Origin: a virus
Direction: 5' to 3' (one strand)
DNA: 64,000 bases
Virus record (IMG/VR): IMGVR_UViG_3300042446_002107
Span: 28,298 to 92,297 of that record
This document shows, in pieces, positions 4,101-48,200 of the stretch. The notes below the pieces were generated by a model. The model was not told the DNA's origin. It did not search any database and worked only from the letters and a program-made list of their open reading frames with translations. The first letter of the stretch is position 1. Each line of letters begins with the position of its first letter. The translations under genes were made by a program, and so were the position numbers.

Positions 4101-4320
4101 CTTTTTTCTTTCGAGTCTTGAGTGGCTTGACGTATCTGGATGGCATCGGGGTATTTAAAGACGGTATGTCCAGGAAAGAGGGTTTGCTCTCTTCTGGTTC
4201 GGGCTTTGATTTATTTTTCCCAGTTGTGCGTCTTTTTACAGTAGGCAGCCCTCTGGCCCCTATTTGGTTCAGTTCTAAGCTAAAAACTTTTTTCTGGTCT
4301 TCTTTTTTACCAAGGGCCAT
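4087..4320 (-). CDS. small basic low-complexity protein
   Basis: 77 codons, rich in Lys, Pro and Ser, probably disordered (TVKRRTTGKNKSKPEPEESK, RYVKPLKTRKKKDGDE). The start overlaps the end of the 3009-codon gene by 14 bases, so the two are probably translationally coupled. No family recognised. Confidence 0.5.
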   Translation of the reverse strand: MALGKKEDQKKVFSLELNQIGARGLPTVKRRTTGKNKSKPEPEESKPSFLDIPSLNTPMPSRYVKPLKTRKKKDGDE

Positions 4321-7300
4321 AGTGTTCGTTTTCTATCATGTTTGCTTCTGCTTCCTTAATGTCGTATCTACTTACGTCTGCTTCTTCAATATTTCCAATG
4401 CCATAGTAGAGAATCTGTGGAAACTCTACTCTGTTGCCGTTTGAGTAATCCCGTACCCACACCAGACCGTCTCTCTCGAACTCTGTCCATGCATGTGGGA
4501 ATCTGAGCCCTTCTGCTTCTCCTCCGGTACCAAGAGGATAGCCATGTACTATTTTTACATTTTCGTAGGCATCGGCCAGTTTTCTAGCCTGCTGTATTGC
4601 TTCACTAAAGCAGTCACCCTCTCCATCGGGGACTTTTTGATTAAACTTTTTCTCAAATTCGTCATCGTGAAGCTGAACGCTCTTTGGCTTTGCTTTCTTT
4701 GAAGGATTTTTGCCAGAGGATAATCTCGTGCTGTTTTCTCCGTCGGTTTTGAGAACTAGAGCACCCTTTTCTTGTGGGTCAAAAGCACCAACTTGGCGAA
4801 GCGTGATTATTTCTTTGTAAGTCTTTGTTGGGTCTGGATTTACGCTAACAACTTCAAGTCTTCCTCCAGAAACGTATTCACGTGGAGTCATTCCTGTTTC
4901 CTCGTCTTCCATAGCGAGGTAATAATCTTCGTGGTCTTCAGGCAGTGACTCACCTTCCCATTCAAGCTTTATGGTTTCATTCCCCACTTCATCCAGCGTG
5001 TCTTTTATGTCTGTTTTTAGTTGTCGTCTCTCTGCCGGGTCTCTGGACTTTTGATAATCATCAACAAGTTTTATAAGCCTGTTAGCAAACTCGGTATCGT
5101 TCTCAATATTCTCTTCGTCAGAGACTCCGTTTTCTATATCAGCCAATATTGCTTCTGCAAATTCATTGACGTTGTAAAGAGTGTCGCTTTCATACCTGCT
5201 AGAGAAGACTGGCTCAAATGTTCCGCCCGTTTGATATGACCCAGGGAAGTCTTCTAGCACCAAGAGAGCGTCGTTGCCGAATCTTGTCAAGAAATGGTCC
5301 CCACTAGGAGATGGACCTATTTCAACAAAAGCAAGTAACGGTATATCTACCTGATTACCGACCTTCATTGTGTCGAAGAACTGTTTTCCTTCTTCTGGAG
5401 ACGAAAACGCCATTGCTCTATATAGATAAGGCTGTTTTTCGTATCTTGCTTTGTTCGTTAAAGAATCGACAATGCTTGCCATAAGATAGCGGGCTTGTTC
5501 GGTTCTCTTTTCGGGAGAAATAGCTGTGTCAAATCTTGAGTTTCCAAAGAACCCACCACTTTGAGTGATATTTGGGTCTCGTTCTGAGTACTCGTCTATT
5601 CCAGCAAGTTCGTATGCGGCTGTTCTTATTTCGCGACATGGGTCCCATTGCATCCAGTCTCCACCAACAGACTCTTTGACTATATCGTCTCTGTCTTCTT
5701 CGCTATCATCAGGAGATGCTCCAAGAACTTCAAAATCAACAATCTCTTCAACTGTTTTCCATTCTGGAGTGTGTGATTTCTTGCCTGAAGAAAGTTTTTG
5801 GACCGATTCAGAGGACTGGTTATCGGCCGTGACGTATCCCTCGGGCATTATTGCATCAGTGAGGTTTGCACCAGTCAGGTTTGCCGCTTCAAGGTTTGCG
5901 CCAGTGAGGTTTGCTTGGGTTAGGTCTGCGCCAGTCAAGTCTGCGCCCGTTAAGTCCACCTCAGTGAGGTTTGCTATTCTTAGGTCTGCACCACTTAGGT
6001 TTGCACCACTTAGGTTTGCACGAGTCAGGTCTGTATCAGCCATGTCTGCAGAAGACAGATTTGCGCCAGTCAGGTTTGCTTTATTCAGCTTCGCACCCAT
6101 TAGGTTTGCAGAACTCAATTCTGTACCGCTCAGGTTTGTATCAGTCAAGTTTGCATTCATAAGGAATCCAGCAGTAAAGTTTGCATTGGTCAGGTCAGCA
6201 CCACTCAGGTTTATATTGTGGCCGTTTGCACCAGTGAGGTCTGCGTCAGTCAAGTTTGTACCAGACAGGTCTACGCTACCCAGTCTTACGTTTTCAAGTC
6301 TTGCGCCTTCCAGGTTTGCATTTGAGAGGTCAGCATCTATTAGGTTTGCACCCGTCAGGTCTGCACCGGACAGGTCTGCGCCACCCAGGTTTGCACCACG
6401 CAAGTCTGCACGAGACAAGTCTGCGCCAATCAGATTTGAGTCAGACAGGTTTGCGTTATTCAGCTTTGCGTTTGTTAAGTTTGCGCCAGACAGGTTGGAA
6501 CCAACCAGGCTTGCGCCGGATAAGTTTGCTTCAGTGAGGTCTGCACTGCGTAGGTCTGCGTCTTCTATGTCTAGGTCGCTTCCGTCTATGAATGACAAAT
6601 CTGAACCAGGCTTTATAAGCTCTTCAATATTTGAAGTAGTTAATTTAGACGCTCTCCCTTCTCCGGCAATAGCTGACATCGATGCGTTTTTTAATCTGTT
6701 TCTAGCACGTGTTGCTTCCTCACTGTCGTACGCGAGAATCGCAAAAGCCTTGACCGGCTTGCCAATAACAACTACTTCATCTTCAGAAAGACACCCAAAC
6801 CCGCTCAATGGGTGTGAAAATATATCTTCAACGGGAACAAAAGCTTTAAGCAGTGTAGGCTCCAAAGGTCCACCTACTTCTCCTCCAGAATTACTAAAAC
6901 CCAAAGCGACTCCCGAGCTCGTGCTCCATGAAGATAGTGGCCGCATTGTTGTTTCTATCGGTGAAATAACTCCCGGGGTTAAATCTATATTATTCTGAGA
7001 AAATCCTCTGTATATGGGTACGTGTGTAACCCCTTTTGTTTTGTAATAAAGCTGAGTAGCATCATATATATTTTGGAGAATCGGTCTAATCATTGCTGAT
7101 TGAGCATCCGTCAATTCGGGAGCTCCGTCAAATTCGTGAGCCGACATTTCCTCCCTTTCTTCCGGGAGAAGAGCTTTAAGCGGCCAAGTTGACCAACCCA
7201 CGGCTTCGGTCAATCCAAACATCTTTCTTATTTCATGCTGAACTGCAAGAGCAACCGGGTTTGCGTTGTTGGCCGAGATTGCCCAAGTATGAATAAGGTC

Positions 7301-10300
7301 GGAAATCAGAGATTCTCGAACAAGTCGTTTTCCTTCGGTTGTCTCTAAATCAAAGAACACAACTCCCGTTTTGTTTGTGTAGCTTTCCCGCTTTGATTCA
7401 AAATTTCCAGCTCTAGAACGTACGTTTGCTACTAGATGCTCTTTTAGTGCTTTTTTAATTTCTGGCGAATCAATGTTTGAACTATCTATTTTAAGCAAAC
7501 CCGAGTCGCGTATTTTCATGAGTTTTTCTGCCGTTAGCCAACCTTTAAACTCAGACATAATATCTGCAAATTTTTGACCATAATCTTCATCACTAATATC
7601 AAGAGACGACATTGCATCCATGACGCCCATGTTTACTCCACGACCCAGTAATGAAATTACTTCATAATCGCGTTCTCCCGTGTTGGGATTTATTTCCCCT
7701 ATTCTGGCAAGCCCGAAAGCTTTACTTTCTTGTAGTTCAACTGCTTCGATAAGGCGGTTTAAAAGTCCACGCCGTGGCTCTATCTCTTCTAGAAACTCTC
7801 TTCTAATATCGTCAGTTCCAAGTTTCGTCATTAAATAAGGGGTAAAAAGTGATTTTTCGCTACCGTCTGTAGCCATTAATTCATCAAAAGAGGAGCCAAA
7901 AAGTTCGTCAAAGTTTTCTTTTTCTAGCCTGTCTAATATTTCGTCGTAATATCGTGCTCTACCAAGAATGTCGTCATGTATTTTTGCCGAAATAATACGT
8001 CCGCTTTTTGTATCAAAAGCACCCCTAGCAGCCGTTCTTCTTTCCGTGCTCGCAGCATCTGCTGGTAGGTTTTTTACAGTTTCGTACATTTTTTGTACTG
8101 CTTTAAAAGTTTCCGTACTGTGAAAACCGAAACGGTCGTTGCCTGCAGAAAAAACTTTAATAAAATCTTCAACATCAAAATCTACCGAGCGAGACAGGTT
8201 TGCGGTAATTGCTTTCTTGGCAATAATAGAAGCTCTTGAACCCATCCCTATCGAGTCAATACTTCCATAGGCTCCTTTGTCGAATTCCAACGCTATAGAC
8301 TGTACGTCTTTTAGTAACTCGTTCTTTAAGGTGTCTTCATCAGGTATTGGTAAGGCTTTAAGCAATTCTTCTGACGGTTCGGTAGCGAACGAAACCAGGC
8401 CTTCAGGTCTCTCCACTACTGGAGGTTTCCTTTTTTCCTCAACGGTTGCTTCTTCAGTTTCTTCTTTTCTGAATCTTGAGAAAATTGTTTTGCGTTTGTC
8501 TTTTTTGGCACCCGATGAAAGGCGATTTTCCGAGCCAGCTTTAGAATCGCTCCATGGAAGGTTTTTTTCGTCAACGCCAATTAGCGTATAAATGTCTTTT
8601 CTGAGTTTCTTGCTCAGGGTCTTTTCTGGCATTTCCTTGTTTGGATGCATTATTGCAACAAAGGCTTCTGCCATGGCCTCTCTTTTGTTTATGTTTCCGT
8701 AAGAGGTGGATAGGAGAGGCTCATCGGGGTGGGCTCTGAACATTTCTTCAGGGCTTCTTCCAGTCAGGTCGATGAACTGCGAATAGATTTCTATTCTCTT
8801 GTCGTCAGTTTCGTAGTCACCGTATTCTTCTGCAACATCAAGCGAAGCTACGTATCTTGGGTCAGAAAGCTTTCCAGTTCCATAATATGAGCGCATTTTT
8901 CCTGAAGCGCCGTTTGTTTCCGTATCCCAAAGCGCTCTGTGATGTATCCAGTGTCCAAACTCGTGAACGAGTGTTCCTTCTAGGGACCTATCTATGTGAG
9001 CATCTCGTGGTGCCGGAACCCGGTCTGGGTCTAAACTTATTGGGTAAACACCCTTGTCGTCATTAAGTAACGATTCTCTATCTATCAGGGCTCGTGGAGA
9101 AATACCTATAGACCCCAAGGAACGATTTGCAAGTCCGCTAACAAATGGGATTTTTTCTGTTCCGCGTTGCTTGGCAAGAAGCTCTAGTCGTTCTTTCATG
9201 TCTGGACTGTTTTCGTAAGCGTCCATTCCTTCGCGAGTGAACGGAACAATCAATGGTGCTCCGAAGTTTTGCATTACCCACATAACAGAAGGGGAAGAAT
9301 CCAGCAGGTCTTTTACTAATTTCTGGGTAGCAGCTATTGATTCTGGAGAATAATCAACAGGAATATTAGTTGAGTCTTTTTGTAGCTCCTCATAGTAGTT
9401 CTTGATGAATTTTTGCTGTTTTTTACTGGCTCGCCAGTTTGGTCCAGCAATATCGTCAGCCCACATCTCGAAATGCTCATCAGCATTGACAGGAACAACA
9501 ACCTTAGAAATTTCATCAGAACTCAAACCGGAAAGCCACGTTGAGGAATACCTACTAATCAAATTTCCTGAAGAGTCTTGAGTTCTGTAGCCAGTAGCAC
9601 CAGTTCCTTTTCGCTCCTTTGACGGAGCATTCATTGGTATTAATTCGCGCTGTCTGCCGGAAGAAAGACGATTTGAATTCTTTGAGGGAACAGGTCCAAT
9701 ATTGTCTATTGCGTTGTCGTACGAATCTATTGTTGAACGATATTTTCCTTTTTTTAAGATTTCTAGAATTTCACTATCGCTCATTCCGTCTATTGAGATT
9801 CTCTCATTATCTATGAAGTCTCGAAACCTTGAGAAATGCTCACCTATTTCGTCGGATATTTCCCTGCCGCTAGTATGTCTTGATTCGTATAATTCCTCTG
9901 CATCACGGTTTCTAATTTGAAGATACGTACGAACAACATCTGCATCTGACATTTCTGATTCTCTATAGAATCTCCCTACTTCTTTCCTAATTTCAGATAT
10001 CGGCGGAATGCTTCTTTTGGCTCTAGCTCCAGAAGAAAGCCTTGTGCTTTCCTCTTCTTTCTGGGCTGAAACAAAAGACTCTTTGTCTGATTCAAACTTT
10101 TCAATATCTGCGTTAAATTTATCGTTGTCTGCTTTTAGTTTTGCGTCTCTTTTTTCTTTATCCAAGACGTCAGTGGACCATCCGTTCTCAATGGCTCTAT
10201 CGATTATCTTCTGCATAACCTGACTGGTTGCGAAAGCGTCGGCATCGGCGTTGTGGTGACCCTCACCTAATTCAACATCCAAATATTCGGTTATTGCAGC

Positions 10301-13300
10301 AAGACTGCTGGATGGTTTTTTATTTCCGTCTCTATCGGTTATATAGGGACCTTCTGGGCTCTCTTCGCTCCATACAGGCAAGGTCATTGCACTTATGTCT
10401 CTTGTGTCAAGATAGCCAGAAGGACGCCAATCTATGCCGTCTCTTTCTAACGCATCTTCAAGCACTCTCTTATCAAACGTTGCATTCTGTACACCAATGA
10501 TTGCGTCTGGTCCAATAAACTCAGCAACTTGTCTATGGGCTTCCGCCATTGGCATTTGCGTAGCAAGCCATTCGTTGGTTATTGGATTACCATCTGCATC
10601 TTTAAGGTTTGCTAAAGACCATTCACCAAGAGGCTGTTCGGGGTTCATGAAAAGATTTAAACGGCCTATTTCTTTGCCGTTCTTCATTCTTACAAGACCA
10701 ATTTGCGTTGGGTTACCGTTTGTGGTTGCTTTACCGAATTCGTCGAAATCTAATCCGGTTGTTTCGTAGTCAAGAAATACCATTTCGGTTTCGGCATAGC
10801 GCTCCTTGAACTCCTCCCAGGAATCAACGCCTTCAAATCTTTCTTGCGCTCCTTCAAGGAAAGCACCCAGCGTTGGTTCGCGCGGGTATCGAGGAGCTCT
10901 ACCACTGGAAAGCCTTGCTGAACCGCTACTTCCAGAAGAAGCCCCAGCCAGCTCTCTTAGTGGTCTTGAGTAGAAGAATTGAGCATTTGCATTAGAAAAA
11001 ACTTCGTCTGCTTTAGGAAAATCTACAAACTCTTCTGCCGTGGCTTCCGTCTCAAACAATCCAGTATCGTTATTTTTTCTGTACAGGGAAGATATCTTTT
11101 TTCTATCTTCTTCAGAAAACATTTCTGGAGTATTGACGATTGCCTCATCAATTAATTTTATAAAATCCTGCTTATCTTTCTCTCCTGCCCAAGAGAAACC
11201 ATTTTTTGGCCAATGAACAGCACCGGTTGAACCACTGCCGGAATTACCCCAAGTAATTATGGAACGAACATCAAGTTCGTTGTATAATTTTTCATTTCTA
11301 GCATTAAAAACAGACCCAATTCCTTGACCTTGGGCACGATTGTTGATGTAAAAAGAATCGTGAGAGACAATTCGAACGTCTTTGTCATCTCCAGACACCT
11401 GAATGAATGTTCTGTATCCCGTCGCAAGAGCCGGTGTACCGTCTTCTCTGGAAATGTATCTTTTTCCATCTTCATCATTAAATATAGCCAAGAGTGCGTC
11501 GCTGTACTCAGGAAGTGGCTTAATCCTGAATTCAAGTTGCAGTTCTGTTACTAAGTCACCCTCTTTTATATTTTCTTCATACAGTCCTAATTCATCCTGT
11601 TCCGCAAGGTCTTTTTCAGAAGCCTTTTTTACCTTTATCGCTGGCGCATAGGAAGATTGCGGCATTATTTCTACTAGGACTTTTTTTCCTATGTTTAATT
11701 GTGTCCCGTCGTCAGCGGTGATGATGACGTCTTTGTCTAGGGTCATCTCGCCTTTAAATACTTCGGCTAACAAGTTGCGAACTCGTTCTTTTTCTAGAGT
11801 TCTTTTTTCATCGTCTTTAAGTATTTGTCTCGGCTTTGGTTCTGGCATTCCGGGAGGCCTTGGTGGCGTCGGACCGGTATCAAGCACATAAATATCTTCT
11901 TTTTGAAATTCTTCTGACACAATATCATCAAGAAAATTAGCTATCGATTGTTTTTTATCTTCGCTTAACGATGGCTGGGAATCAACTATCTCCTGATATT
12001 TTTTTCCAGAAGAAAGCCTTGAGCCGGAGTCTCCCTGCTCTCCTTTGCGTGGTGAAAAGAGACCTTCTTGCGTTTGTGTAGCTTTTTCTGCTTTTATTGG
12101 TCCATCCCCACCAGTAACCGAACGCCACCAGTCTCCACCTTCGTCGGTGGTGCCACCAGGGCTTATCTCGTAGTCGGGATTTTCTGTCACAAAAGAATCA
12201 AGAAGGGCTTCGGCTATTCCTTGACGACGATATTCTTCATCGGTGAAAACCATTGCCACAACGGCTTTCTTGTTTTCTGTATCCATATTGTAGTCGATGT
12301 ATGCAACGTTTTTATCCTCGTCGAACGCAGAGATGTAACCGTTGTACATGTCTCTGCCGGGAGAGTCTCCACCACGAGAAATCTCAAACACTTTGCCGTC
12401 AATTTCAAAAGACGATACCTGCGCGTATTCGTCGTCTTTTCCATAGCGCGTAACGTTTAGCTTTGTATTACGTCCTTTGCCAGAGGAAAGTTTTGCCGAT
12501 ACGGAGACAGTGGGAGTCGCGTCGGCAAAAGCCCTACCGTCATCAGTCAACGCGTCGCTATGTTGGAGGTCTTGGTCGGGAAATACTTCACGATGAAAGT
12601 TAAACATCTCTGTTGCTAATCCACGACGGCGGTGTTTTTCTCTTGTTTCTATTCCGAAAACTTCAATGCCTTTGCCGGATAGGTAGACCTGCATTCCTGC
12701 TGATGGTTTAATTTTTCGCTGGTCATCGAGCAGTCCTCTTAGTACATCCCGGTCATCAATGTCCTTCAATGCAAGGGGGGCTTCTTTGTTTGTAAAAGGA
12801 TTTTTGCCTAGCTCGTTAAATCTGTCGAGAAGGTTGTTTCTTTCTTTCTCAATGTCTGAATCAAGAAATGCGGCTACGGTTCCCGATGTCGTTATGACTA
12901 TTCTGTATTCTCCGCCTTTGCCTTTGACGTCTTTCGCTTGAACTTTTTTTGACGCCACAAGAGCGCCATAGTCGTGCCGCTCTGTTGGTGAAAGTTGCAC
13001 CATGCCACTAGAAAGACGAGCAACAGTATTTGGCTTACCTGCTTGACTCTCGGTGCCGACCCATACTGGCTTGGTGGTTCCCTCGTCTGCCCAGCCATCG
13101 CCGTCAACGTCTCTTCTCGAACCGGTAGGGTTTCTTTGGCCTGGCTTGCCGCCAGTGGGAAGCTCGATATTGCCGCTTCTTCTTTTTTTGCGCCCTTCGC
13201 CGATTGTCGGTCTATTAACTCCGCGAGAAGCTAAATACTGACCAAGTCGCCCTACGGCCGCTTTTTCCTCTTGGTTAGCCGCCAGACCGCGTCTGGACTC

Positions 13301-33500: not shown

Positions 33501-36500
33501 ATTCTGTATGCAGTATTCTCGGCTCTTGCTAACAGGTCTTCTTCTGGAGTATCGGCGATTAAACGAGCAACGTCTGGGTGGATGTCACCCCTTGACAGTG
33601 GGTCAGCCGAGTCCCCCTGTCCTCCTCCAAGAATGGATTTAACTTCCCTAACCTGAGAAGACATTGACTTATTTCTTAATTCTGTTCTTTGCTTGCGCGT
33701 AGCGGGAGCGCCCAGTACGTCTTTCTTTCCAGAAGACAAGCGGGAACTTGAGTCATCAGACGACAAGTGAGGGGGTAGTTCGTCAAAACCTTCTCCGAAA
33801 GAACCACCAGCGTCCACAACCTCGTCTACAACTGTTTTGCTTGAGGTTTCTGAGACGGAATCGTAATCACTTCTTGAACCCGTAGATTCCTTACCTGATT
33901 CACGGCGCGAGTTAACGTACTTGTCTGCTACTGCTTTGATTTTTTTACCGTGGCTCTGCGCCCAAATTGCATCAGTTTTGTTTGTCTCCAAACTGTATGC
34001 CATGGAGTCAATGACCTCAACAGAGTCTTTTTGATAAGACAACTCTGCTCTTACTGTTCCGTCGGGGTCTATCCCCGTAATGCGAAGGCGTCCAGGTGGA
34101 GCAACAAAGCGTTGGTCGTCTTCTCCTGCTGAAGGAAAGAGGCCTCTGTCTCCCTCGCGAACCTGTACAACTACGCGGCGAGCGGTTTTCCCAGTTTCTT
34201 TGTCGCGAATTCCTTTTTCTGGCATGTCCAGCTTTTTTGTTTTCGTCGTCAGAACCTTGCCGGAAACAAATTGAGGCATTTCAATTTCTTTGCCTTCAAT
34301 TTTTCCTCGTAGAACTCCTGAATCGAAATCAATAACTGTTTCTATCTCGAACGGGTCAGCAATAGACGTTCCGTCGATTACTTCCATGACTGGAATTAGC
34401 AAATTTTGAACTTGCTGGACAACGTCGCCTTCTTCAGATGATTTTTCATCAACCGTAAGTCCCAATCTCTTTATTCTGGCGTTTCTTTTGTTTATTGCTC
34501 TTCCGGCCCTGGTCTGAGCCGCAGGGTCAAGCAGTTGTCCTACGTCCGAAGATGCAATGTCTCCGAGTTCTTTGACTGCTTTTTTCTGCTCTGCAGTTCC
34601 GCGAACCCGGCGACGTTCTTTTGTTGCGTGGTCTTTTGCTTCTTGCTTGCTCTTTAAGGACACGTTCTTTTTTGCTGGAGGAGAAATTAAATCCTTAACA
34701 CTCTGGTCTAGGTTTTTCTTTAATTTGGCAGTCGTCGACTTGTCTCCTGCGTCACGCATGTTTTGTACATACTGCTCTTTTATGACGTCAATCTTTTCAA
34801 TTAGGTTTTTAGCCTCGTCGGAAGATGGGTCAAGAGTGCTTAGGTATATTTCGTCATCAGCCAGGCGTCGAATTATCTTCTTCTCTGGCATTTTTTCTAC
34901 AGACTTACGAAGGTCGTCGAGAGCTGCTATTTTTGCAAGTTCTTCAATTTCAACATCATCAAACAGTCCTTCTCTTTCACGGACTGCCTTAACGGATTCT
35001 TTAAATCTGTCTTTTTCTCCTCTAGCTCCGATGCCGTACTTTTTTCTCCACGCTTTTGATGCTTCGTTGTATCTAGTGTCGTGGAAGTCCAATTCCATTT
35101 GCGTTTGCTTCTTAAGATTCTCTAGATATCCCCTTATTGACTCTTTCTCGTCTTCAGGCAGGGACGGGTCAATCTCGAAATCATTAAGTTTCTTTAACGT
35201 GTTATTTGAAGCATCTCTCTGAGATTCAATAATTGCAGCTTCTGAAATCATTTCATCTTCAGGAAGGTCTTTGAATCCCGTCTTGAATTGTTTTATTTCC
35301 TCACGAAGAGCAGAAGCAATGCGTTCGTCCCTGTCCCCTAGCGCTTCTGTTATGGATTCTTCCGGCATGCCGTCCGGAACGACGGAGTCTGGACGAATAG
35401 TGAACACGTCGTCCATGTCAACAAGCGCTGCGGTCTCGTCACCAAGAGCTCTGTCAATCGACGCTCTACTATCGCCTATGTCGTCCATAAAGGCTAAAGC
35501 TGCGTCAATGTCGTCTCCGTATATTATGCCTCTCGCGCGAAGGGCGTGTAGTTCTGCTGCTACTTCAAGAGCCCAAACCTCTGAGCCTTCTTTGTATGCA
35601 TCTCTTGGATACGCTCCAGCAAGAGGTGCCACAGATTTGATGCGCTCCATGGCGTCTTTTAAGGAATCCAGGTTTATGTCGTCCGCTACGTCGGTCATTA
35701 TCGCCATAACGTCATCGCCGGACAGTCTGTAGATTGAGTCTACGTTTCTTGTCCCTTTAACGATTCCGTTTCTGTCTACTATGGGAACAGATATGAAACC
35801 TTTGCTGTCTATCTGTTCTTGAATTTTCGCCATGAATACTTGAAGCTGAATACTATGTGCGTGCTCGTGAAGCATGATGTGACTAGAGAAAGAGTAGACA
35901 CCATCAATTAGTCCAGCCATTCCTCTTGCGGTATGGTCTACGTTGACAAGAAAATCTGCAACCGCTAAACGACCTTCGGCTTCGCTTCGTGCGCCAATCG
36001 CAGAAATTGCCAATCTTTCATCTGGTCCCATGTTTGGAAGCATTGTTTCTTGATTTTGTAGAATTTCTTTCATGTTTATATGAATAACGCTACGTAGTTC
36101 TCCGGGAACTTTGCCCATTACGGGGTTGCCGGCTTTGTCAAGAACTGGTGTTCCGTCTGGTTTTAATCGTGGAACAATAGAGGGGGCATCTCTGTACATT
36201 CCTGTTCCAGCTTCGTCATCAGATAAAAAGTTATATTCAACTCTTCCAAGCACTCTCGCTGTTGATGGATTTTGCATGAATTGGTCCAAGAGTGTTTCGA
36301 ACATTGCTCGTTCTGTCTCTTGATACCTTCTAATGTCAGAATCAATAAGTCTTTTTTGTTCTTCGTTTGATAAACGATTCCACCCTGAAACTGATTTAAG
36401 TCTTGCTTCAGTAAACTCTCTGACTTCTAAATCAGTTAGACGAGATGCGTCTCCACCAGAAGAAGTGTTTAAAATCTTTAAGTCCCATCCAGCAGCACCG

Positions 36501-39370: not shown

Positions 39371-39389
39371 TAACCATTAAATGTCTCTA

Positions 39390-39418
39390 ATTATAACCTA
39401 TCACGCTATACGTGCGTG
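39390..39418 (-). promoter_or_regulatory. promoter and operator-like inverted repeat before the acidic head protein
   Basis: On the minus strand a perfect TATAAT -10 lies at 39390-39395. Just upstream, where a -35 would be, is CACGC-7-GCGTG (39402-39418), an inverted repeat. No TTGACA-like -35 is seen, so an activator or repressor may bind the repeat. It is the only gap in the stretch between polyprotein 3 and the capsid gene long enough to hold one, apart from the capsid leader. Confidence 0.5.
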
Positions 39419-39449
39419 AATTGGTAACAGTAGATAGTTCAATTAAATT

Positions 39450-42400
39450 TTAATCAGCCTGTTTTGGCTTTCTTTTTTTACCTGACAGCGTTTCGCCGTT
39501 TTCAATTCTGGTTTTAGCGTTTCTTAATTGCTCGGCGCTGAAAATGTCTTCAAGAGTATGGTCCGTTCCGAATATCTCGTTAAACCTGTCAACCATTGTT
39601 TGCATTTCAGAAACAGCGAACCTTGGCTCGTTGCCTTTCTTTGCACTCCAGGCTGAACCTTTTGCAGCAGCAGCATCGCGAAGTGCGGTACCCATATCTG
39701 TCGCGCCGACTATTTTGTTACGGTTTTCTTTGCTGTTGAGTCTGCTGTTCGGGAAGCTTCTGTCTATGAATTCGTTAAGGGCTTCATAAACCGCATACTT
39801 GGGTCTTTCCATCTCTTCGTCAAACAGTTTCCCTGCCTTGCCGTCCTTCCAGACGTCTGCCGCATTTGGCAGGACTCCTTTACGAATCATGTGAGCAATA
39901 GTTGCGGTTGGGATTCCCTGCTTTTCCCACTCAGGGTTGACTCCAGTACTATCGGTTCCAAACTTTTCAGAAAGAATTTCACTAAGTCTGGTTCTCCACT
40001 CTTTCTTATCTATTCCTAGATATTTAAGCAAAGGCTCAATCTCAAAGTCTTTTTTATCTGTTTTATCAAGTTTGATTATTTCATCATCGGCAGACAAGGA
40101 TGGAGGATTCTCAAGTTCGTCAAAGCTTTGTCCATAAAGGTCAATTTCGGCTTCAGAGTCGCCCTCAAATGGGTCATCGGGGGCAAATCGTCCTGTTGCA
40201 CGGAACTTCGCCCTCTCGTCGACCTCACCCAATTGAGAGTACTCGGCTGGACTAATGGCTTCTTCTTCATCTTGGTCGAACCAATGAGGGAAGGCGTCTT
40301 TGCCGAACGTTTCGATAATGAAACGGTCACGCATGTTTGCCCTACCGGCATTCTCCATTGCCATGTCCACTTGGGGGGTGATACTTTCCGTGTCTCCTGT
40401 TGGGGATGGAATTATCTTTCTGATTTCGTCTCTTGAAACCGGAGCAAAATAGCGCCAGCCTGCCAGCTCTGGTTGATTTCCAAGTTCAGCAACCAAAAGA
40501 CGAACTGCGTCGTGGTTTACTCCAGCATCGGAATTTTGAATCTTCTGCTTGTCCATTTCGCTCAAACCCAAAAGACTTGCTATCTCTTGTCGTGTCGCAG
40601 AACGAGAACGAAGGGATTCGCCCTGGCCATTAAAATCTTCTGGAATGCGAAGTTGCTCTGCGAGAGCGTCTACTGAGAGCATCCATGTTTCCGCCGAAGG
40701 ATTATCATTGCGCAAGTTGTCTCCAACTCGCCCAACCCGAACCCTGTTCTGACGAGCCTTCATGGCTTCGCCGACTTTTTTCATGGCGTTTTTTGTTTGT
40801 TCTCTTCCTTCGGCATTTATTTCGATACCTCTTTCCCTGAATCCAGCCCACGTCTGCATTGCATAATCCGTCTTGCGGCGGTTGTTGGGTGAATTGGGGT
40901 CTCCAAAGAGTCTTATTCCAGCAAGGTCTTGAGCACTTATGGCACCAGGGGTGACGCGACTACTGCTTCTTACGCCCATTCTTCTAGACAGACGGCGGCC
41001 AGGACCAGGGAAGTTTGAGGTTCCGCTAGAGAGGCGCATCTGACCATCAGAATCGTCTCCCATTTCGTCCGCATCAATCAAGTCATCTATGTCTACTTCT
41101 GATTCGTAATCACTTGGGTCACGAACGACATCGTTAATATCCTTATCCACGTCAAAGACGAGGTCGGGGTCAATTTCGATTTCTTTTTCATCAAGCGCTG
41201 CTCGGTCTGGAAGATTATTTTCATCTATATCGTCAGGACTCATCTTGTTTAATGCTGCATAGAACTTAGGAAGAGGAATACCGCCTTCGTCTCCAAAGGC
41301 CCCCTTGTCTAGTTCTGGCGGTATATGGCCGTCCTGTACTGCTTTCTTGATTGCTGCCCTGACGTCTTTTGTAGATTCGTCGTGGAGATAATACTTGAAC
41401 CCCTTCCAACCTGGGTCAATCATTTTTTTCGCACGAGAAAACGCCACATGGATGAGGTTTGTTTCCTCCATGAAGGCAAGTCCTGCTTGTCCTTGTGGAA
41501 TATTTGCAGCCAATGAATCGCTAGGGTCTCCCAAGTCTTCTGCTACTGCAACAAAATCTGACTCTCGGCCTTTTGAAAGCTGAATGGTCGTAATCTCAAC
41601 GTCTCCACCAGGGCCTTGAGCCGAATCTCTCATTGCTTGGCCAATGTCGTTTAATATTTTGGTTGATTCTTCAAGGTTTTCGCCCTCAATTACAAATCCG
41701 TCAAACGCTCTGCGCTTTCCTCCGGCTCGCGGGCCGCCCCTCTCTGCGTCTTGCATTATCTTTACCTTGTCGGATAAACCAAGATTCAAGATGACCTTTT
41801 CGAGGTCTCTTCTATAGCGACCGTTACCTACTCTTTGGTTGGGAGGTATGTTTCTTGCTTCGGAGCCGTCGGGGAGTGTTTGTGGTCTACCGGTATCCAC
41901 ACCGTCACCGGTAACGATAATGCGTCCGGATGGTTTTCCGGGTTTCTTTTCGTCTCCGCCTATAATTTCAAGTTGAGCATATACAGCACCTCGACCATCG
42001 GTTGAGGTGCTGGGTGGAGGAATTATTACAATTCTTTGTAGTTGAGATTCTTTAGCTTGAGGGGCGGATGCGGCTTTAGAAAATTTAGATATTGAGTCAA
42101 TTTCTTCTGGTTCTATTCTGAAATTCTCAAGCGTTACGCTTTTTCTTTCTGGAAGAATTGACGCAGGAATAACAGTAATTTTTTCTTTACCGGTTTTCGC
42201 ATCTATTTCTATTTTCTGTCTGCCCTGAAGAAGGGTTAACATTCCTGATATCCCAAGAGGCACGCCGCCGCCAGGAGGGGCCTGCATTATTAGTTTGTAT
42301 GCACTTCTGGCCTGCTGTCCTGAAGCCTGATTTATTACTCTCTTCAGTCCTCCCTGGTCGAAGATGGGTCCAATCCATCCCGATACTTCGGGGAGACCGC

Positions 42401-45400
42401 GCTTGCTTTTTTCTGCTTGAGGCATAAAGATGTACTCAAGATGTCTCGTAAACTTTAGAAGTTCTTCGTGCTTGCTTAAAGGAATGACTACTTCTGGCAG
42501 AATTGGCAACCCGTTATCATCTTTTTTCGCATTTGGACTATCGACGACAAGTTTAATGAACTTGAGAGTTTCGTTAATGATTTCTGCGTTGGTTCTGCAG
42601 AGAATCATGGTTGGGAGATTTGGAACTTCTTTATTTGCTTCCTCAACCCTGTCGACTATCTTCCCCGCTTTTGGCTCAAGAATGGAGTCTCTTAGTTCTC
42701 TTAATTTATCATCTTGCTCTTTGCGTGTTAATTTTTCTCCAGCTTTCTTTCCAACCGTATGTACAGAGAAATTCAAACGCTTTTCTGGAGTTGAAAACTT
42801 TTCTTCCAAGTCCTTAAGAAGGAACTCACGAGTCATATCGTCGATTTCGTCAACCGGCTCCAGACCTTTTCTATCTTTTTTAGGAAGCAATGGGTCGAAC
42901 AGTCTGTTTACTACAACCTGAGCTTTGCCTTTAACGTGTTTCCATGGCAACTGAGGGACGCCCTGTTTGTCAAGGTAAAGGTTTTGCATACCCAAGGCAA
43001 GGTTCGTTAAATGCCCAATTACTTCTCCGTATCTAAAAGATTCGGTAATTGTTAATTCATAGTCAGCGTTTAGGGATTCAAGGATGTTTTTCGCGTTACG
43101 AAACGCATAAACGGCTTGTCTATCATCTCCAACAACAACTATCGGAAGATTGGCTCTATTGTTGTCGAGCACTGTTTCAAGAATTTCATTTGAGTCTTGC
43201 GCCTCGTCAACAAAAAATGCACTGAGTGGTTTTTCTTCTGTCGCCATTCTCTTGGTTAGAGTAACTTGAACGTTTTTGCCTTTACTCTTTTTTCTTGTTT
43301 TGACTATCCATGTTTCGCCTTCAAGCTCATACGTGTCTCCAACCGCGTAGCTATCTGGAATAGTTTTTTTGCGCTCTTGAGACTCGGTATGCGTTATCAA
43401 GCCCGGGTCTGAGCGAAGGTCTGGCTCCGTAAGCATCCACAGTTTTGCGACAGAATCTCTTGGTGGAAGCATACTGCTATCCCCATCGGAAAATTTGTCT
43501 ATTGCTTCCTGCAAAGCTTCTACCCATTGAGCCGGAATATCTTTTTCATCTAAAATGGTGTCAACAGGGCTGATGTCCTTACCAGAACCGCGCGGCGTAT
43601 CTAGCTCTTGCGTTAGTATTGCGGGCTGCGTAAACATCCATGCTGACGCTTTTTCTTCTTTTGAAAGACTCCATCTAGTAAGGGCATTTTTAAAAAGGTC
43701 ACCGAATTGGTCTCGACTGACAAATGTTGAGCCCGCATCTGGAAGAATAAATCCAGACGAATCTTCCATTGTTGTTTGAATTTTTCCCTTAGCGTCTCTT
43801 ACTGGTTTTCCCTTATCGTCCAAGATGGGAACAGAAGTTGGTCTAGTTTCTTGACCCTTCCAGCGCTTCTCGTCTGCAAAATCTAAAAATTCTTTCCAAT
43901 CACTTCCAGTATCTAATCTTGTCCAACCAAGACTTCTGTATCCTGGTTCAATTCCATCAAAAGACTCGGTTGTTCCATCAAAGAGCTCCCGTACCTGCTG
44001 TGGCAATAGTCTTTCTGGTTCGTCAGGAGTTAGAGCTTCGCTGATGAATTTAGGATTCTTGGCTCCGGGATTATTTACTTTTCTGTCAGTAGGCGAAATC
44101 AATGCGAATTGCATTTTTCTGCGCATTCCTGTTCCGTATTTTTTGTCGCCTTGTCCTAGTTTTAGTGACCAGTACCAAATCTTGTCGGTTGTTGATACTC
44201 CGGTATTTCTTGGAAACTCCAATTCTGCTTCGAATTGATTTTTCTTGTTAAATACCGCATAGTAAAGATTGTTTATTGATTTTTCTTCAGCTAGTTTTTC
44301 TACAGATTCCTTAACCTGTTCCGCGGACATGCCAGAGAAATCAACGCCGTACCTATCTGAAAGGTATCTGAGTTGTTCTGGTCTCCGAAGGTCGCCTTCT
44401 GGCCATAGGTCGAATTCTCTCTGCAGACCCCATGCGATGCTCTTTAGCGTTGTGGTTTTACCAGTTCCAGCACCTGCAAGAATAGACAATATGCGCGGGT
44501 CTTTGTTTCTAATGAGATTCATGGCAACCGCCATGATGTCTCGCTGCTCTTCGGTTGGCTCGTTTGACAAACCAAATGCAAGCCTGAGCGCTACTGTCTC
44601 ATCTATGGGCTTTATTTCTGGCGCATTAGGGTTTTTGCCCTTGATTGGGCCTCTACCGCTAGAAAGTCTTCCAGACGGAGTAATGACGATTCCATCTTTG
44701 GTCTTTGTTGGTAGGTTTCGTGAAAGAGAACTCATCTCTCGTTCCGCAGTAGACGTTCTTCTAGCCTCTGGTGCGAAGTCCTGCGGGAACTCCACGTCCA
44801 GCATGTCTTCCATTGTGCCGCTTACGCCTGTTGTCGGCTTGATTCTTGGAGAGTCTTCGTATCCAGCAAGCATTGGCACTTCGAGCCACGCATTGTCTTT
44901 GCCTTTTCTTTCATCGTCCGGGATGCCAGCAAGTCTTCGCATTGTCGAGGAACGGTCTAGCAAGAAGTCGTTTGCTTGTTGGGCTGAAAGTATTGCCCTA
45001 TGCAAGGCAAGTGGGTCTGCTGTCAGTTTCTTCAACCATCCTGCTACATAAACAAGGTGATTGTCTCTAATTGTTGGCTCAATACCCATTGCGCCCAACG
45101 CGAACGCTGAACCTATCTCAGCGATTAGTTCTTCAAATGCGTATTGTTCATCGCCAAATTCTTTACCTAAAGTTCTGTTTAGGCGTGTTGGGTGAGAGGT
45201 CCAATGAACGGTTTCGTGCATTGCTGTCCCATAAAAAGCCGTAGCATCAACAAACTGTTCAAAAGCAGGCATGTGAATCTTGTCTGTTGATGGGCGATAA
45301 AAAGCATCCTCACCAAATGATTCTACGAAATCAGGACCAATTTCCTTAATAACGTTTTCTAAATCTTCAAGTCTTGTTTCTTGATTTATGTCCGCATCGA

Positions 45401-48200
45401 TAGGTTCATAAAATTTCTTTGGGAGGCCAGCTACTTCGGCTACGTTATAAACAGTTTGTACCTCGTAGTAGCGCCCCTCGACGACTTCCTTGCCGTTTAT
45501 GTCTGTGAAAGTGCGTCCTTCTCGTGGAACAAGAATAGAAACGCCCATCTTTCGTCCACCCGGCTTAAGTTTTCCACCAAGCTTTTTCCATTGACCTTCT
45601 CCGGCCCATCGAGGAAGTTCGTACCCGCGAGATTTTGCAACCAAGCCAAGAGTCATCTGGTTCATGCCTTGATACACGCGACCGCGCGTAGGGTTTCTTG
45701 CATAAAGCTCAGGGCGACGCCATGGAAGTTTCCAGTTTTTATCTTTATTTGGGTCGTTCATTAACTCCGTGAGCAACTTCACTACGTCTTCTGCCATCGC
45801 TTCGTAGAATTCTTTAAGCTGCGAGGAGCCTTCTGGAAGCTGAGCTTTGTCGGGAAGTTTCCCAGAAGAGAAACGTTCTACGCTTGTCATCGATTGACTA
45901 GCGATTGGTATACGCTGAGGCTTTATTCCTCTGGCAAGCTGAGTGTTTTCTCTGTTGAGAACCTGTGGTGCCTTGGGTTTTGTTGGACGCTTTTCGCGTT
46001 CCATGTCCCCTTCGACCGTTTTTTCAACACTCTTCATGTATTTATCGAGTTCAGCAATAGCTTGCTTTAGTCTCTTTATTTGGTCTTTGTCTGAAGCACC
46101 ATCAAGTACGCCTTGAAGCTCGTCTCTTTGTGACTCAGCGGAGCCGTATTTTGTCGCAGAATCTACATCAGGGTCGTCTATGCGTGGAACGTCAAACAGT
46201 TTTCCGCTACTTAGTTTTGAGCCGACAGGCTTGACTTTGCCGTCTCCAGCTCGGTCAAGAATCTCTGATTCAGGCTTGCGTACTTGAGCGCGGGATGGTT
46301 TTGGGTTGCGTATTGAACCAGGGCCATCCGGTGTTGGGTCTGGAGTGGCTAGAGCAACACCACGAAGGAATAAGCCTTCACCGACTATTCCGTTTAGGTT
46401 GGCATCACGCGCACTAAATGGGTCAAAATCTTCTGCTCCAATTGACGTAAAGAATCGACCGGCCGAACGGCCTCCACCAATATTTGGTTTATTTGTTAAA
46501 CGACCACCAATAGCACGACCAAGTCGGTAACTAGCAGCTTTCCATTCGATGTCATTTTGATTTATAGACTTTTTTTTTAGGTTATCAACAGCCGTATCTA
46601 CCGCATCAATTAAGTCATAACTGATGCCAGACGTCATTACAATTCCATCCACGTCTACAAAAGACTCAACGCCGTGATAGTCAAATATTGGGTCTAGGGC
46701 CTGCTTGACCATGAAGGCAAACTTTGGCACGACAGGCAACAGGTATGCCTTCTCTTCGGGCCAATCACTTTGCGAACCAAACTCGCTTAGCAACTTGAAC
46801 TTACGACGCTTTTTTCTACGTCTTCCGATAGCTCCACGCAGGGCTGCTATTGCTAACTCTCCAGGGTATTTTACTTCAAGGTCGGAAACGTAGTCTTCTT
46901 GAGTGAACTCTTCTTCGATTTCGTATGTCTTTTTGACTGTTGAATCACCTTTGACAACTCCATTAGGAATGACGGCAAAACGGCACTTTCCTTCTGATTC
47001 AACTTCCATGTCAATTATCTTGCAGCTATCGCCACCTTGATAAAAAACGCAGTTAGCACATTTTACGCCTATGCCAGCAATTGAGTTTTCGGCAGCTGGC
47101 GTGTATCCGGCCCAAACACCTTCTGAGTCTTGATTAAACTTGCCGTGACGTTTTGTTATCTTGAGAAGTGCGTCTCTTAGGTCTGCTTCTTCTTTGTCCA
47201 AGTTTGTTGGGTCAAATTCTTGAGTATCATCATCTTCGTACTCAACTGCTGGAAGCGCGATAATCTGAGGACCATTTTGTCCTGGTCTTATCGCAACAGG
47301 CATAGACATTGCTGGCGGACGCGTGGGGCGTTGAGGCTGATTCATCACCATTCCTGGAGACCCAATTGGCATCATTGGCATTCCGGGCATAGGCACTGAT
47401 GGTCTGCGTGGTGCAACAACCGTAATTGGCTCAGGTGCTCCAAACATGTATCGTCCGCGACCTCCGCTGAAATGGCACTTGTATCGGCCAACTTCACCGT
47501 TATCTGCACGACGAGCAAAGGTTAGCTCTTCTCCGTTTACGTCCATTAAGGAAACTTTTGCGCCGAGCATTAAGCCCAATTGCTTTTCAATTTCTGCGCG
47601 GTTTATGGTTTCTTCTTCGTCTTCTTCCATATAGGAAACTGGACCGGAATATCCACCTTCTTCTGACTTTACGGAAATAGTGCCAGTGAGCTGGTTTGCT
47701 CCGTGAAGAACAGGAGATACTTCGTACAGTTCAAGTTCGTAAATAACGTTTGCTTGCGACTTCTGGTCGAACTGGGCACGAAGCGTCTTATAGCCGATTG
47801 ACCATTCTTGTTCTTCACCAAAGAAGGCAACCATAGCGAATGCTTCTTTACCTTTTTCGGAATTAAGGTTGAACTGAACGCGAGCAAAAAGTCCACCGAT
47901 TCCTGCCATCTTCATCTTCAAAGGCAATCTTGGGTCCGTATTTGGTACTTCGTAAATCTCTAAAACTTTACCGATTGGGTCATTCCAGTTGTGGCCCCAA
48001 ACAACACGAGGCTTGCGGCGCTGAAGGCTTTTTGTGAACGCACCAGTAGTGACAATGTCTCCTACTGAGTCTTTGTTGCCTATTCCGGCTACGAAGCACT
48101 CAACCATTCCCTGAGCTTCATCTAGGTTGATGGAGCCACCCTTGGTCGCAAAGGAAGTTCCGAGCGTGGTTGACTTATATTCGTACAGTTCAGGCAACAT
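39450..48200 (-). CDS. giant polyprotein 3: prohead protease, ArdC-zincin, UvrD-like helicase
   Basis: An uninterrupted frame of 2916 codons. Residues 1-180 are an HK97-type prohead protease (peptidase U35/S78 like): VVWGHNW (His70), EWSIGYKTL (Ser134) and YELELYEVSPVLHGAN. A Pro/Met-rich stretch and a Cys4 motif (KCANCVFYQGGDSC...GKCRF) follow. KLSSG 662, RFSSG 776, RLSSG 1178 and RLSSG 2389 delimit the rest: a short helical linker, an ArdC-like antirestriction domain with zincin (HETVH 995-999), an SF1 helicase (Lys1248, Asp1665/Glu1666) and a 528-residue C-terminal segment. HK97-type proteases normally stand alone or are fused to a scaffold or capsid. A fusion to 2700 residues of effectors is unusual. 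The gene lies directly after the portal. Confidence 0.92.
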   Translation of the reverse strand: MLPELYEYKSTTLGTSFATKGGSINLDEAQGMVECFVAGIGNKDSVGDIVTTGAFTKSLQRRKPRVVWGHNWNDPIGKVLEIYEVPNTDPRLPLKMKMAGIGGLFARVQFNLNSEKGKEAFAMVAFFGEEQEWSIGYKTLRAQFDQKSQANVIYELELYEVSPVLHGANQLTGTISVKSEEGGYSGPVSYMEEDEEETINRAEIEKQLGLMLGAKVSLMDVNGEELTFARRADNGEVGRYKCHFSGGRGRYMFGAPEPITVVAPRRPSVPMPGMPMMPIGSPGMVMNQPQRPTRPPAMSMPVAIRPGQNGPQIIALPAVEYEDDDTQEFDPTNLDKEEADLRDALLKITKRHGKFNQDSEGVWAGYTPAAENSIAGIGVKCANCVFYQGGDSCKIIDMEVESEGKCRFAVIPNGVVKGDSTVKKTYEIEEEFTQEDYVSDLEVKYPGELAIAALRGAIGRRRKKRRKFKLLSEFGSQSDWPEEKAYLLPVVPKFAFMVKQALDPIFDYHGVESFVDVDGIVMTSGISYDLIDAVDTAVDNLKKKSINQNDIEWKAASYRLGRAIGGRLTNKPNIGGGRSAGRFFTSIGAEDFDPFSARDANLNGIVGEGLFLRGVALATPDPTPDGPGSIRNPKPSRAQVRKPESEILDRAGDGKVKPVGSKLSSGKLFDVPRIDDPDVDSATKYGSAESQRDELQGVLDGASDKDQIKRLKQAIAELDKYMKSVEKTVEGDMEREKRPTKPKAPQVLNRENTQLARGIKPQRIPIASQSMTSVERFSSGKLPDKAQLPEGSSQLKEFYEAMAEDVVKLLTELMNDPNKDKNWKLPWRRPELYARNPTRGRVYQGMNQMTLGLVAKSRGYELPRWAGEGQWKKLGGKLKPGGRKMGVSILVPREGRTFTDINGKEVVEGRYYEVQTVYNVAEVAGLPKKFYEPIDADINQETRLEDLENVIKEIGPDFVESFGEDAFYRPSTDKIHMPAFEQFVDATAFYGTAMHETVHWTSHPTRLNRTLGKEFGDEQYAFEELIAEIGSAFALGAMGIEPTIRDNHLVYVAGWLKKLTADPLALHRAILSAQQANDFLLDRSSTMRRLAGIPDDERKGKDNAWLEVPMLAGYEDSPRIKPTTGVSGTMEDMLDVEFPQDFAPEARRTSTAEREMSSLSRNLPTKTKDGIVITPSGRLSSGRGPIKGKNPNAPEIKPIDETVALRLAFGLSNEPTEEQRDIMAVAMNLIRNKDPRILSILAGAGTGKTTTLKSIAWGLQREFDLWPEGDLRRPEQLRYLSDRYGVDFSGMSAEQVKESVEKLAEEKSINNLYYAVFNKKNQFEAELEFPRNTGVSTTDKIWYWSLKLGQGDKKYGTGMRRKMQFALISPTDRKVNNPGAKNPKFISEALTPDEPERLLPQQVRELFDGTTESFDGIEPGYRSLGWTRLDTGSDWKEFLDFADEKRWKGQETRPTSVPILDDKGKPVRDAKGKIQTTMEDSSGFILPDAGSTFVSRDQFGDLFKNALTRWSLSKEEKASAWMFTQPAILTQELDTPRGSGKDISPVDTILDEKDIPAQWVEALQEAIDKFSDGDSSMLPPRDSVAKLWMLTEPDLRSDPGLITHTESQERKKTIPDSYAVGDTYELEGETWIVKTRKKSKGKNVQVTLTKRMATEEKPLSAFFVDEAQDSNEILETVLDNNRANLPIVVVGDDRQAVYAFRNAKNILESLNADYELTITESFRYGEVIGHLTNLALGMQNLYLDKQGVPQLPWKHVKGKAQVVVNRLFDPLLPKKDRKGLEPVDEIDDMTREFLLKDLEEKFSTPEKRLNFSVHTVGKKAGEKLTRKEQDDKLRELRDSILEPKAGKIVDRVEEANKEVPNLPTMILCRTNAEIINETLKFIKLVVDSPNAKKDDNGLPILPEVVIPLSKHEELLKFTRHLEYIFMPQAEKSKRGLPEVSGWIGPIFDQGGLKRVINQASGQQARSAYKLIMQAPPGGGVPLGISGMLTLLQGRQKIEIDAKTGKEKITVIPASILPERKSVTLENFRIEPEEIDSISKFSKAASAPQAKESQLQRIVIIPPPSTSTDGRGAVYAQLEIIGGDEKKPGKPSGRIIVTGDGVDTGRPQTLPDGSEARNIPPNQRVGNGRYRRDLEKVILNLGLSDKVKIMQDAERGGPRAGGKRRAFDGFVIEGENLEESTKILNDIGQAMRDSAQGPGGDVEITTIQLSKGRESDFVAVAEDLGDPSDSLAANIPQGQAGLAFMEETNLIHVAFSRAKKMIDPGWKGFKYYLHDESTKDVRAAIKKAVQDGHIPPELDKGAFGDEGGIPLPKFYAALNKMSPDDIDENNLPDRAALDEKEIEIDPDLVFDVDKDINDVVRDPSDYESEVDIDDLIDADEMGDDSDGQMRLSSGTSNFPGPGRRLSRRMGVRSSSRVTPGAISAQDLAGIRLFGDPNSPNNRRKTDYAMQTWAGFRERGIEINAEGREQTKNAMKKVGEAMKARQNRVRVGRVGDNLRNDNPSAETWMLSVDALAEQLRIPEDFNGQGESLRSRSATRQEIASLLGLSEMDKQKIQNSDAGVNHDAVRLLVAELGNQPELAGWRYFAPVSRDEIRKIIPSPTGDTESITPQVDMAMENAGRANMRDRFIIETFGKDAFPHWFDQDEEEAISPAEYSQLGEVDERAKFRATGRFAPDDPFEGDSEAEIDLYGQSFDELENPPSLSADDEIIKLDKTDKKDFEIEPLLKYLGIDKKEWRTRLSEILSEKFGTDSTGVNPEWEKQGIPTATIAHMIRKGVLPNAADVWKDGKAGKLFDEEMERPKYAVYEALNEFIDRSFPNSRLNSKENRNKIVGATDMGTALRDAAAAKGSAWSAKKGNEPRFAVSEMQTMVDRFNEIFGTDHTLEDIFSAEQLRNAKTRIENGETLSGKKRKPKQAD
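39453..41036 (-). other. polyprotein 3 segment 5: unknown C-terminal segment
   Basis: Residues 2389-2916 start at RLSSG (41022-41036). They are mostly helical and charged, and end ETLSGKKRKPKQAD. No domain recognised. Confidence 0.5.
41037..44669 (-). other. polyprotein 3 segment 4: UvrD/Rep-like SF1 helicase
   Basis: Residues 1178-2388 start at RLSSG (44655-44669). Motifs in order are Walker A LAGAGTGKTTTL (Lys1248), FFVDEAQDSNE (Asp1665), VVVGDDRQAVYAFRNA, ITESFRYG, TTIQLSKGRESDFVAV and NLIHVAFSRAKK. Large insertions between motifs make it longer than UvrD. Confidence 0.88.
44670..45875 (-). other. polyprotein 3 segment 3: ArdC-like antirestriction protein with zincin
   Basis: Residues 776-1177 start at RFSSG (45861-45875). 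The ssDNA-binding N-domain has WKLPWRRP, ARNPTRGRVYQGMNQMTLGL and GQWKKLGGKLKPGGRKMG. The peptidase half has FYGTAMHETVHWTSHPTRLN and FEELIAEIGSAFA. This is the full ArdC plan known from conjugative plasmids, where it protects incoming DNA from restriction. Confidence 0.85.
45876..46217 (-). other. polyprotein 3 segment 2: short coiled-coil linker
   Basis: Residues 662-775 start at KLSSG (46203-46217). SQRDELQGVLDGASDKDQIK and the next helix look like a small coiled coil. A basic Pro-rich stretch follows. Confidence 0.5.
46218..48200 (-). other. polyprotein 3 segment 1: prohead maturation protease with C-terminal extension
   Basis: Residues 1-661. The protease core has His70 and Ser134. The extension holds a beta-rich GRYKCHFSGGRGRYMFG, Pro/Met repeats, a Cys4 cluster, and a Ca-loop-like RDANLNGIVGEG (about 46376-46411). 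A cut at KLSSG 662 would free the protease from its cargo. Confidence 0.8.

Follow-up and report, generated by a model that had tools for sequence, protein, structure and literature searches.

The African swine fever virus protein pp220 is a large virion polyprotein that is cut at a shared short motif in assembly. Processing by embedded peptidases and an analogy with polyproteins are also proposed for the polyvalent proteins (Iyer et al. 2017, PMC5512222), i.e. multidomain proteins of mobile elements carrying ArdC-N, MPTase, GNAT and other effector-type domains; the same article describes some other members as packaged or transferred without processing, a point that counts against cleavage. 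In SPN3US, a single head protease, gp245, acts at one short motif (AXE) on several substrates of head or ejection type, and the cleavages identified (PMC10052503), the protease's own aside, remove N-terminal propeptides; the word polyprotein does not occur in the main text of that article.

The locus compared here with these systems comes from a virus record of 92,297 bases, 64 kb of which were analysed (hereinafter the window). It encodes three giant proteins, A, B and C (Table 1), and the original prediction held that copies of [RK]LSSG divide them into single-domain segments, most simply released by proteolysis. Giant A combines a GNAT match (residues 332-381), a DnaQ-type exonuclease (853-1040), an HEFGH zincin motif at 1458 and pentapeptide repeats, and giant C an S78 protease, ArdC-N with MPTase-PolyVal (Pfam E 8.4e-39) and UvrD/SF1 helicase matches, so both carry several disparate effector-type domains per polypeptide, as polyvalent proteins do; giant B has no family match in Pfam or PHROGs. 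A peptidase within the chain is present in giant C (MPTase-PolyVal and S78), giants A and B having HExxH motifs only. Giant A lies ~11 kb away from the capsid gene and giants B and C sit between the portal and capsid genes, a place from which we infer that these two are packaged in the virion and transferred to the host. The host suggested by a WhiB gene in the window is actinobacterial. To the left of the window in the same record (L271, 4822-8173), MRVDN opens three called ORFs and MRVDK occurs near the beginning of a fourth, a hint of a DNA element repeated where genes start.

Table 1. Giant proteins, motif sites and neighbouring genes, in window coordinates
Feature	Position	Strand	Remark
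Giant A	4307..13336	-	3009 aa; 9 exact sites, 10 segments
Giant B	30503..37672	-	2389 aa; 3 exact sites and RLSSTG
Giant C	39450..48200	-	2916 aa; 3 exact sites and RFSSG
Major capsid protein	24452..25819	-	Context gene; no clear motif copy
Portal protein	48327..50381	-	Context gene
Terminase	50709-52040		Context gene
S78 (HK97-type) head-maturation protease, C residues 32-175	47676..48107	-	PF04586 E 4.7e-11; phrog_80 E 9.6e-26
Zincin-like region of B (residues 395-772; HEHAH at 602)	35357..36490	-	Candidate processing protease
Site A107 RLSSG	13004..13018	-	Exact motif
Site A282 KLSSG	12479..12493	-	Exact motif
Site A440 RLSSG	12005..12019	-	Low-confidence stretch, start of modelled piece
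Site A808 RLSSG	10901..10915	-	Sole internal low-confidence stretch of model; last residue just past it
Site A1099 RLSSG	10028..10042	-	Low-confidence stretch, end of modelled piece
Site A1223 RLSSG	9656..9670	-	Exact motif
Site A1605 RLSSG	8510..8524	-	C-termini of two separate ORFs (A7) from relatives map 12 and 18 residues away
Site A2514 KLSSG	5783..5797	-	Exact motif
Site A2871 RLSSG	4712..4726	-	N-terminus of a relative's separate ORF (A10) maps 10 residues away
Site B1311 RLSSG	33728..33742	-	Exact motif
Variant B1410 RLSSTG	33428..33445	-	Probable site; four close relatives have RLSSG, RLASG or KLASG
Site B1449 RLSSG	33314..33328	-	Exact motif
Site B2035 RLSSG	31556..31570	-	N-terminus of a relative's separate ORF (B5) maps 4 residues away
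B2205 RSSSG	31046..31060	-	No site, by comparison with relatives
Site C662 KLSSG	46203..46217	-	Closes protease-bearing segment
Site C776 RFSSG	45861..45875	-	LSSG in most aligned relatives
Site C1178 RLSSG	44655..44669	-	Of seven aligned relatives, four LASG and one FASG
Site C2389 RLSSG	41022..41036	-	Exact motif

Recounting agrees with the predicted 15 exact copies of [RK]LSSG, distributed as nine, three and three among giants A, B and C. Chance or composition as their source is ruled out by 2000 shuffles (mean 0.048, maximum 2), and LSSG is the most frequent 4-mer in the giants (15 copies, the best shuffled 4-mer reaching at most 5 in 300 shuffles). Its confinement to the giants was likewise reproduced: LSSG does not occur in 11,795 aa of other ORFs of the window, nor in 7,127 aa encoded by the remaining 28.4 kb of the record (simple caller, ORFs of at least 90 aa); and the next residue is, as predicted, mostly Lys or Arg (11 of 15 sites). 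The codons differ among the copies, so selection acts on the peptide and a DNA-level repeat is ruled out; an internal translation start, thinkable for the one motif type ending in Met, is ruled out by the other types, which lack it. Concerning the three predicted variants, RFSSG in giant C aligns with LSSG sites of relatives and is retained, RLSSTG probably belongs with the sites judging by four close relatives (Table 1), five distant ones having nothing similar, and RSSSG was dropped, the aligned position in four close relatives being RGSKG, RGKKG or RGKNG. The segments between sites span 38 to 1315 residues, and the idea of one domain per segment had to be given up: C1 (1-666) holds the S78 protease together with a module encoded elsewhere as a separate gene, and A8, of 909 residues, contains a long pentapeptide region.

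The relatives were collected by capsid and protease searches of IMG/VR (best 80 of 438 and best 80 of 541 matches, respectively). Fourteen related records were studied, ten read whole and four (G001, G003, G005 and G006) in part; from the remainder of the 18 records searched, i.e. G007, G009, G016 and G018, just the loci already in the set were used. An ORF of at least 900 aa is found around the capsid gene in 67 loci (13 of the 80 capsid loci, without such an ORF, were set aside); with LASG and FASG included as sites, 49 of the 67 exceed all 100 shuffles in the number of sites and seven have none in the stretch around the capsid gene, L029 lacking them even at the aligned positions. Both L029 and L091 have a large ORF near the capsid gene with no recognisable site, L091 retaining the zincin of giant B, and the system may have been lost in them, or its code may go unrecognised.

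The motif exists in several lineage-specific types—RLSSG (the window, L146, L161), S-LSSG (L138, L150, L160), G-LSSG (L045, L047, L049), RFSSG (L054, L055, L059) and [IV][ST]G[RKA]M (L071, L073, L081, L082). Sequence logos, their core being set by the search pattern, read, in percent, [R65 K19]-L-S-S-G-[K26 R22 A20] for 99 sites of six phages, S80-L-S-S-G-A50 for 20 sites of G004, R61-F-S-S-G-[A30 R21] for 42 sites of three phages, and I96-S96-G-R93-M-[G55 S31] for 29 sites of two phages. Throughout these 14 records it is mainly in the ORFs of at least 1000 aa (all 59 counted, tape-measure-like and tail ORFs included) that the dominant motif occurs. Thus LSSG occurs 19 times in 10,035 aa of such ORFs versus 0 in 36,623 aa elsewhere in G002, 20 times in 12,015 aa versus once in 38,561 aa in G004, and 22 times in 10,491 aa versus 0 in 14,338 aa in the partial record G003; the ISG[RK]M type of G014 gives 15 in 11,082 aa versus 0 in 20,685 aa. 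The weakest LSSG contrasts are those of G001 (partial; 18 in 8,188 aa versus 3 in 11,168 aa) and G013 (20 in 14,730 aa versus 2 in 18,166 aa).

The giants of one phage tend to use the same type. The core letters agree between them at 0.866 compared with 0.540 after shuffling (maximum 0.800 of 2000), and the full type at 0.587 compared with 0.255 (maximum 0.417), as calculated for 44 of 45 giants, one with a single site being left out. Mixed phages do exist, G003, G006 and G017 with regard to the preceding residue and G010-G012 in having L with F. Placed on a tree of the S78 protease, the motif type needs 11 changes versus 19.7 when shuffled (none of 200 shuffles was as low), F forming two separate groups and ISG[RK]M a single one; the subtypes are not clearly clustered (S-L 5 changes versus 6.7, other-L 3 versus 3.0). 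Any phage gene would cluster somewhat, so this tree does not single out S78. Its G rows were labelled using all giants and its L rows using only giant C; long branches, those of G012 and a second row, meet those of G014 and a further row. It should be pointed out here that, since the site pattern was fixed after inspecting the same sequences, and phages as well as overlapping alignments are non-independent, all p-values in this study are descriptive.

That the motif would stay at boundaries while the domains change among homologues had been set beforehand as a test, and the homology breaks indeed cluster at the sites. With 266 sites of 45 head-region giants and circular shifts of the sites as the null (the alignments being mutually non-independent), 996 ends of diverged alignments (<70% identity) fall within 20 aa of a site versus 234.9 ± 36.5 expected (maximum 353 of 1000), and 824 alignments span a site versus 1527.5 ± 58.9 (minimum 1327); from this test as well as from the concordance test, 14 of the 59 ORFs of at least 1000 aa (tape-measure-like or tail, picked by their first residues) were left out. 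The window giants taken by themselves yield 71 alignment ends near sites versus 15.6 (maximum 60 of 2000) and 80 site-spanning alignments versus 115.1 (p 0.0005). Modules have been gained, lost, reordered or split off in the giants of the 14 related records, G017 presenting the modules of giant A in a permuted order. The DnaQ-type exonuclease module A5, present in 14 other records, has a family site within 25 aa of both ends in ten of them and of one end in the other four: in G003, G006 and G013 one flank is without a site in the range inspected, whereas the right site of G014 is 44 residues off. These flanks follow the local type, e.g. RLSSG/RLSSG in G008, SLSSG/SLSSG in G004, RFSSG/RFSSG in G012 and SISGRM/LISGRM in G015, and depart from the main one on the left in G010 (RLSSG in an FSSG phage with some LSSG) and G011 (RMSSG).

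Certain relatives encode some modules (A7, the zincin module; A10, the C-terminal one; B5-B6) in separate small genes free of the motif, and the ends of A7, A10 and B5 fall near window sites (Table 1). When all separate-ORF termini are mapped into giants, 27 of 110 are no farther than 30 aa from a site (null 12.0 ± 6.2, p 0.021), which is a modest boundary signal. Three of the 27 come from G004, where the C-terminal end of the protease-segment module coincides with LSSG (residue 411). By our own count from the list, 70 of the 83 misses fall into two situations, one being the module inside the protease segment of giant C, the other the N-terminal portions of the two largest giants with ISG[RK]M.

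The region A430-1120 was modelled with AlphaFold from a 22-row alignment (mean pLDDT 86). The model matches PDB structures of DnaQ and RNase T and has just three stretches with pLDDT below 50—A430-444, A796-811 and A1097-1120—and all three sites of this region (A440-444, A808-812 and A1099-1103) are located in them, in agreement with the prediction that the motif lies outside folds. The first and third stretches are ends of the modelled piece and therefore weak evidence; A796-811 is, according to the model, a true inter-domain linker. As in viral polyproteins, a shared recognition-like sequence is thus found between modules and outside folds, the latter for one region with one internal site.

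Based on the above results, the motif is real; it is positioned between modules, and its behaviour resembles that of a recognition sequence read by a lineage-varying trans-acting factor. The boundary position, together with a type change across separate giants that a plain linker does not predict, makes processing the best model, and the motif is probably a proteolytic site and the giants polyproteins. The original proposal of proteolysis is thus favoured by these two lines, having shed RSSSG and the strict one-domain segments. The seven loci without a site, the modest share of ORF termini near sites and the loose clustering of the subtypes on the S78 tree weigh against it. The three translation products would be long chains of separately folded cargo or effector modules, which a trans-acting phage protease would cut between modules, most likely in virion assembly, the products then being packaged and injected; the cut at the motif, its enzyme and bond, and the packaging and injection of the products are what we infer from the comparisons given above. 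Whether one phage protease cuts all the giants and the tape measure, its specificity and the sites drifting together into a code per lineage (RLSSG, SLSSG, GLSSG, RFSSG or ISGRM) and incoming modules acquiring the local code at their ends, appears an evenly balanced proposition.

The leading, albeit tentative, candidate for the enzyme, with a probability slightly short of even, is the S78 head-maturation protease, with which giant C begins (a feature absent from the original prediction), so that the head protease is itself part of a giant. It has both the family profile and the conserved His and Ser of an HK97-type protease; H70 and S134, which we take to be the catalytic residues, do not vary across the S78 alignment (41 of 41 rows), which includes four cultured relatives. 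S78 was found in 15 of 15 phages; in 13 it is fused to giant C, and the two ISG[RK]M phages encode it on its own, in a version still 56-57% identical to that of the window, which counts against it. Among the other giants C with the fusion, nine of 12 have a site no more than 90 aa from where the protease-segment match ends (the exceptions are G008, G011 and G013), and the separate S78 protein of G014 contains a site-like NPSSGRMGG. A DUF6321 gene (window 23538-24359) is separate here, and a similar stretch is seen by eye after S78 inside that G014 protein. The capsid protein shows no clear motif copy and its likely maturation region does not follow the motif type, so S78 would have two kinds of site to cut. 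The lack of a recurrent motif in stretches of four cultured S78 phages likewise counts against it. A QLSSRE in the N-terminal part of the capsid protein was rejected as a motif; it does not vary with the type and may cap a helix.

That giant B's zincin-like metallopeptidase, or the zincins carried by most giants, and not S78, would cut the sites seems unlikely, even though HExxH is present in 37 of 37 giants of the 13 LSSG/FSSG phages. The HMM of the B zincin recognises 13 of 13 B giants of these phages (the same giants it was built from), and its HExxH is invariant in an alignment of 11 rows. The region, possibly a new peptidase family, has no match in Pfam, PDB sequences or PDB folds and, among viral models, a single one with E <0.001, to a phage protein without a name. 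In favour of the zincins also speak the stretches of four cultured relatives, from which both the B zincin and a recurrent motif are missing, as well as the proposal of zincin processing for polyvalent proteins by Iyer et al. (PMC5512222). Against them stand the two ISG[RK]M phages, where the B-zincin profile finds nothing and the site-richest giants (3927 and 3462 aa) have no HExxH, so that cutting there, if any, must be in trans; L091, too, has the B zincin and no motif in the stretch examined. Autoprocessing exclusively in cis by a built-in zincin is, as a general rule, ruled out by the same HExxH-free giants.

Restriction to the head giants, noted originally for the window, is not a rule, since sites occur also in tape-measure-like proteins of the relatives (e.g. 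L203:8998-13782 and L239:13795-18903), the label being our own, with one weak tape-measure match when three such proteins were compared with PHROGs. Ten of the 11 long enough to judge have a site at residues 528-826, G014 being the miss, and nine of these ten share their core type with head giants of the same phage. The tenth, from G004 (L213:12600-17543), has VSGRM at residue 528 instead of LSSG, though its giants use S-LSSG; recent transfer or chance could account for it. Another copy, near residue 36-39 in eight tape-measure-like proteins (one a fragment), is independent of the type and may be fortuitous. The code would thereby extend to a tail protein, which fits poorly with a protease confined to the prohead and also argues against a head-packaging tag. 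The latter bears on the reading of the motif as an uncut docking or encapsidation signal that binds a scaffold, packaging or ejection factor: such a signal would equally predict trans recognition and lineage-wide change, and a copy adjoins many modules, but it has no need of copies on both sides of a module or at homology breaks, and the same modules occur motif-free as separate genes. We regard it as rather improbable. The tape-measure-like sites would suit a host protease or an unrecognised phage protease better, and yet this variant of cleavage is quite improbable, since a dedicated protease is encoded in the same gene, 29 further window proteins have no peptidase family match in Pfam, and the motif type differs among phages with capsids more than 70% identical to that of the window, which would require proteases of different hosts. 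A flexible linker or recombination seam copied along in module exchange, to which the position at module junctions and the predicted disorder around the sole internal modelled site would conform, is very improbable, because the differing codons leave no shared DNA seam and a linker gives no reason for several genes to keep an exact core of 4-5 residues and to switch it in concert from LSSG to FSSG to ISG[RK]M.

Concerning cultured phages, none covers 80% of giant A or C among the matches listed (40 of 151 and 15 of 457, respectively), and giant B has no match. The stretches of Gordonia GMA6, ScarletRaider, Brevibacterium Cantare and Streptomyces Gilgamesh, scanned on one strand for ORFs of at least 400 aa, contain single motif-like matches, none of them recurrent, such as FSSG in the ScarletRaider capsid protein and LSSG in the GMA6 tape measure. 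In the former (L167:15946-17383), FSSG at residue 160 lies, by eye, near the part aligning with KDVYSGL of the window, and a link between capsid maturation and the motif is possible. Streptomyces phage Gilgamesh (MN234216.1, 31978-45852) has, near its head protease, a 13.9-kb gene of unassigned function, the scanned part of which (in L169) shows no repeat of this motif; the gene may be a counterpart of the giants in a cultured phage.

The polyvalent proteins and head proteases serve as precedents; a lineage-specific cut code common to several giants was not found in the literature searched, which lay outside most subscription journals and all bioRxiv preprints and held nothing on this motif or on a phage cargo polyprotein code. 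If the reading of the giants as polyproteins is true, tailed phages have evolved the polyprotein strategy of eukaryotic viruses, carrying and releasing a kit of effectors; the motif would be a practical rule for dividing giant phage proteins that lack annotation into their functional units, and the lineage codes a natural series of protease-site pairs for testing the joint change of a protease and many sites.

The giants thus resemble polyvalent proteins in their repertoire of domains and differ from them in the lineage-varying code common to several giants, a shared cleavage motif not being mentioned in the accessible part of the article (PMC5512222), according to which, moreover, assemblin-like peptidases are always C-terminal, whereas S78 is N-terminal here. 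With SPN3US gp245 they would share the logic of one head protease, one short motif and several substrates, and the sites would separate modules instead of removing N-terminal propeptides (PMC10052503). The protease itself is like the HK97-type head-maturation enzyme (PF04586) in its domain, its place beside the portal and capsid genes and its conserved His and Ser, and unlike it in being fused to a chain of ~2900 residues; the two ISG[RK]M phages and four cultured relatives have it as a separate gene. Finally, the parallel with pp220 of African swine fever virus is one between unrelated viruses and unrelated proteases, and several parts of the giants are, in contrast to that polyprotein, enzyme-like.
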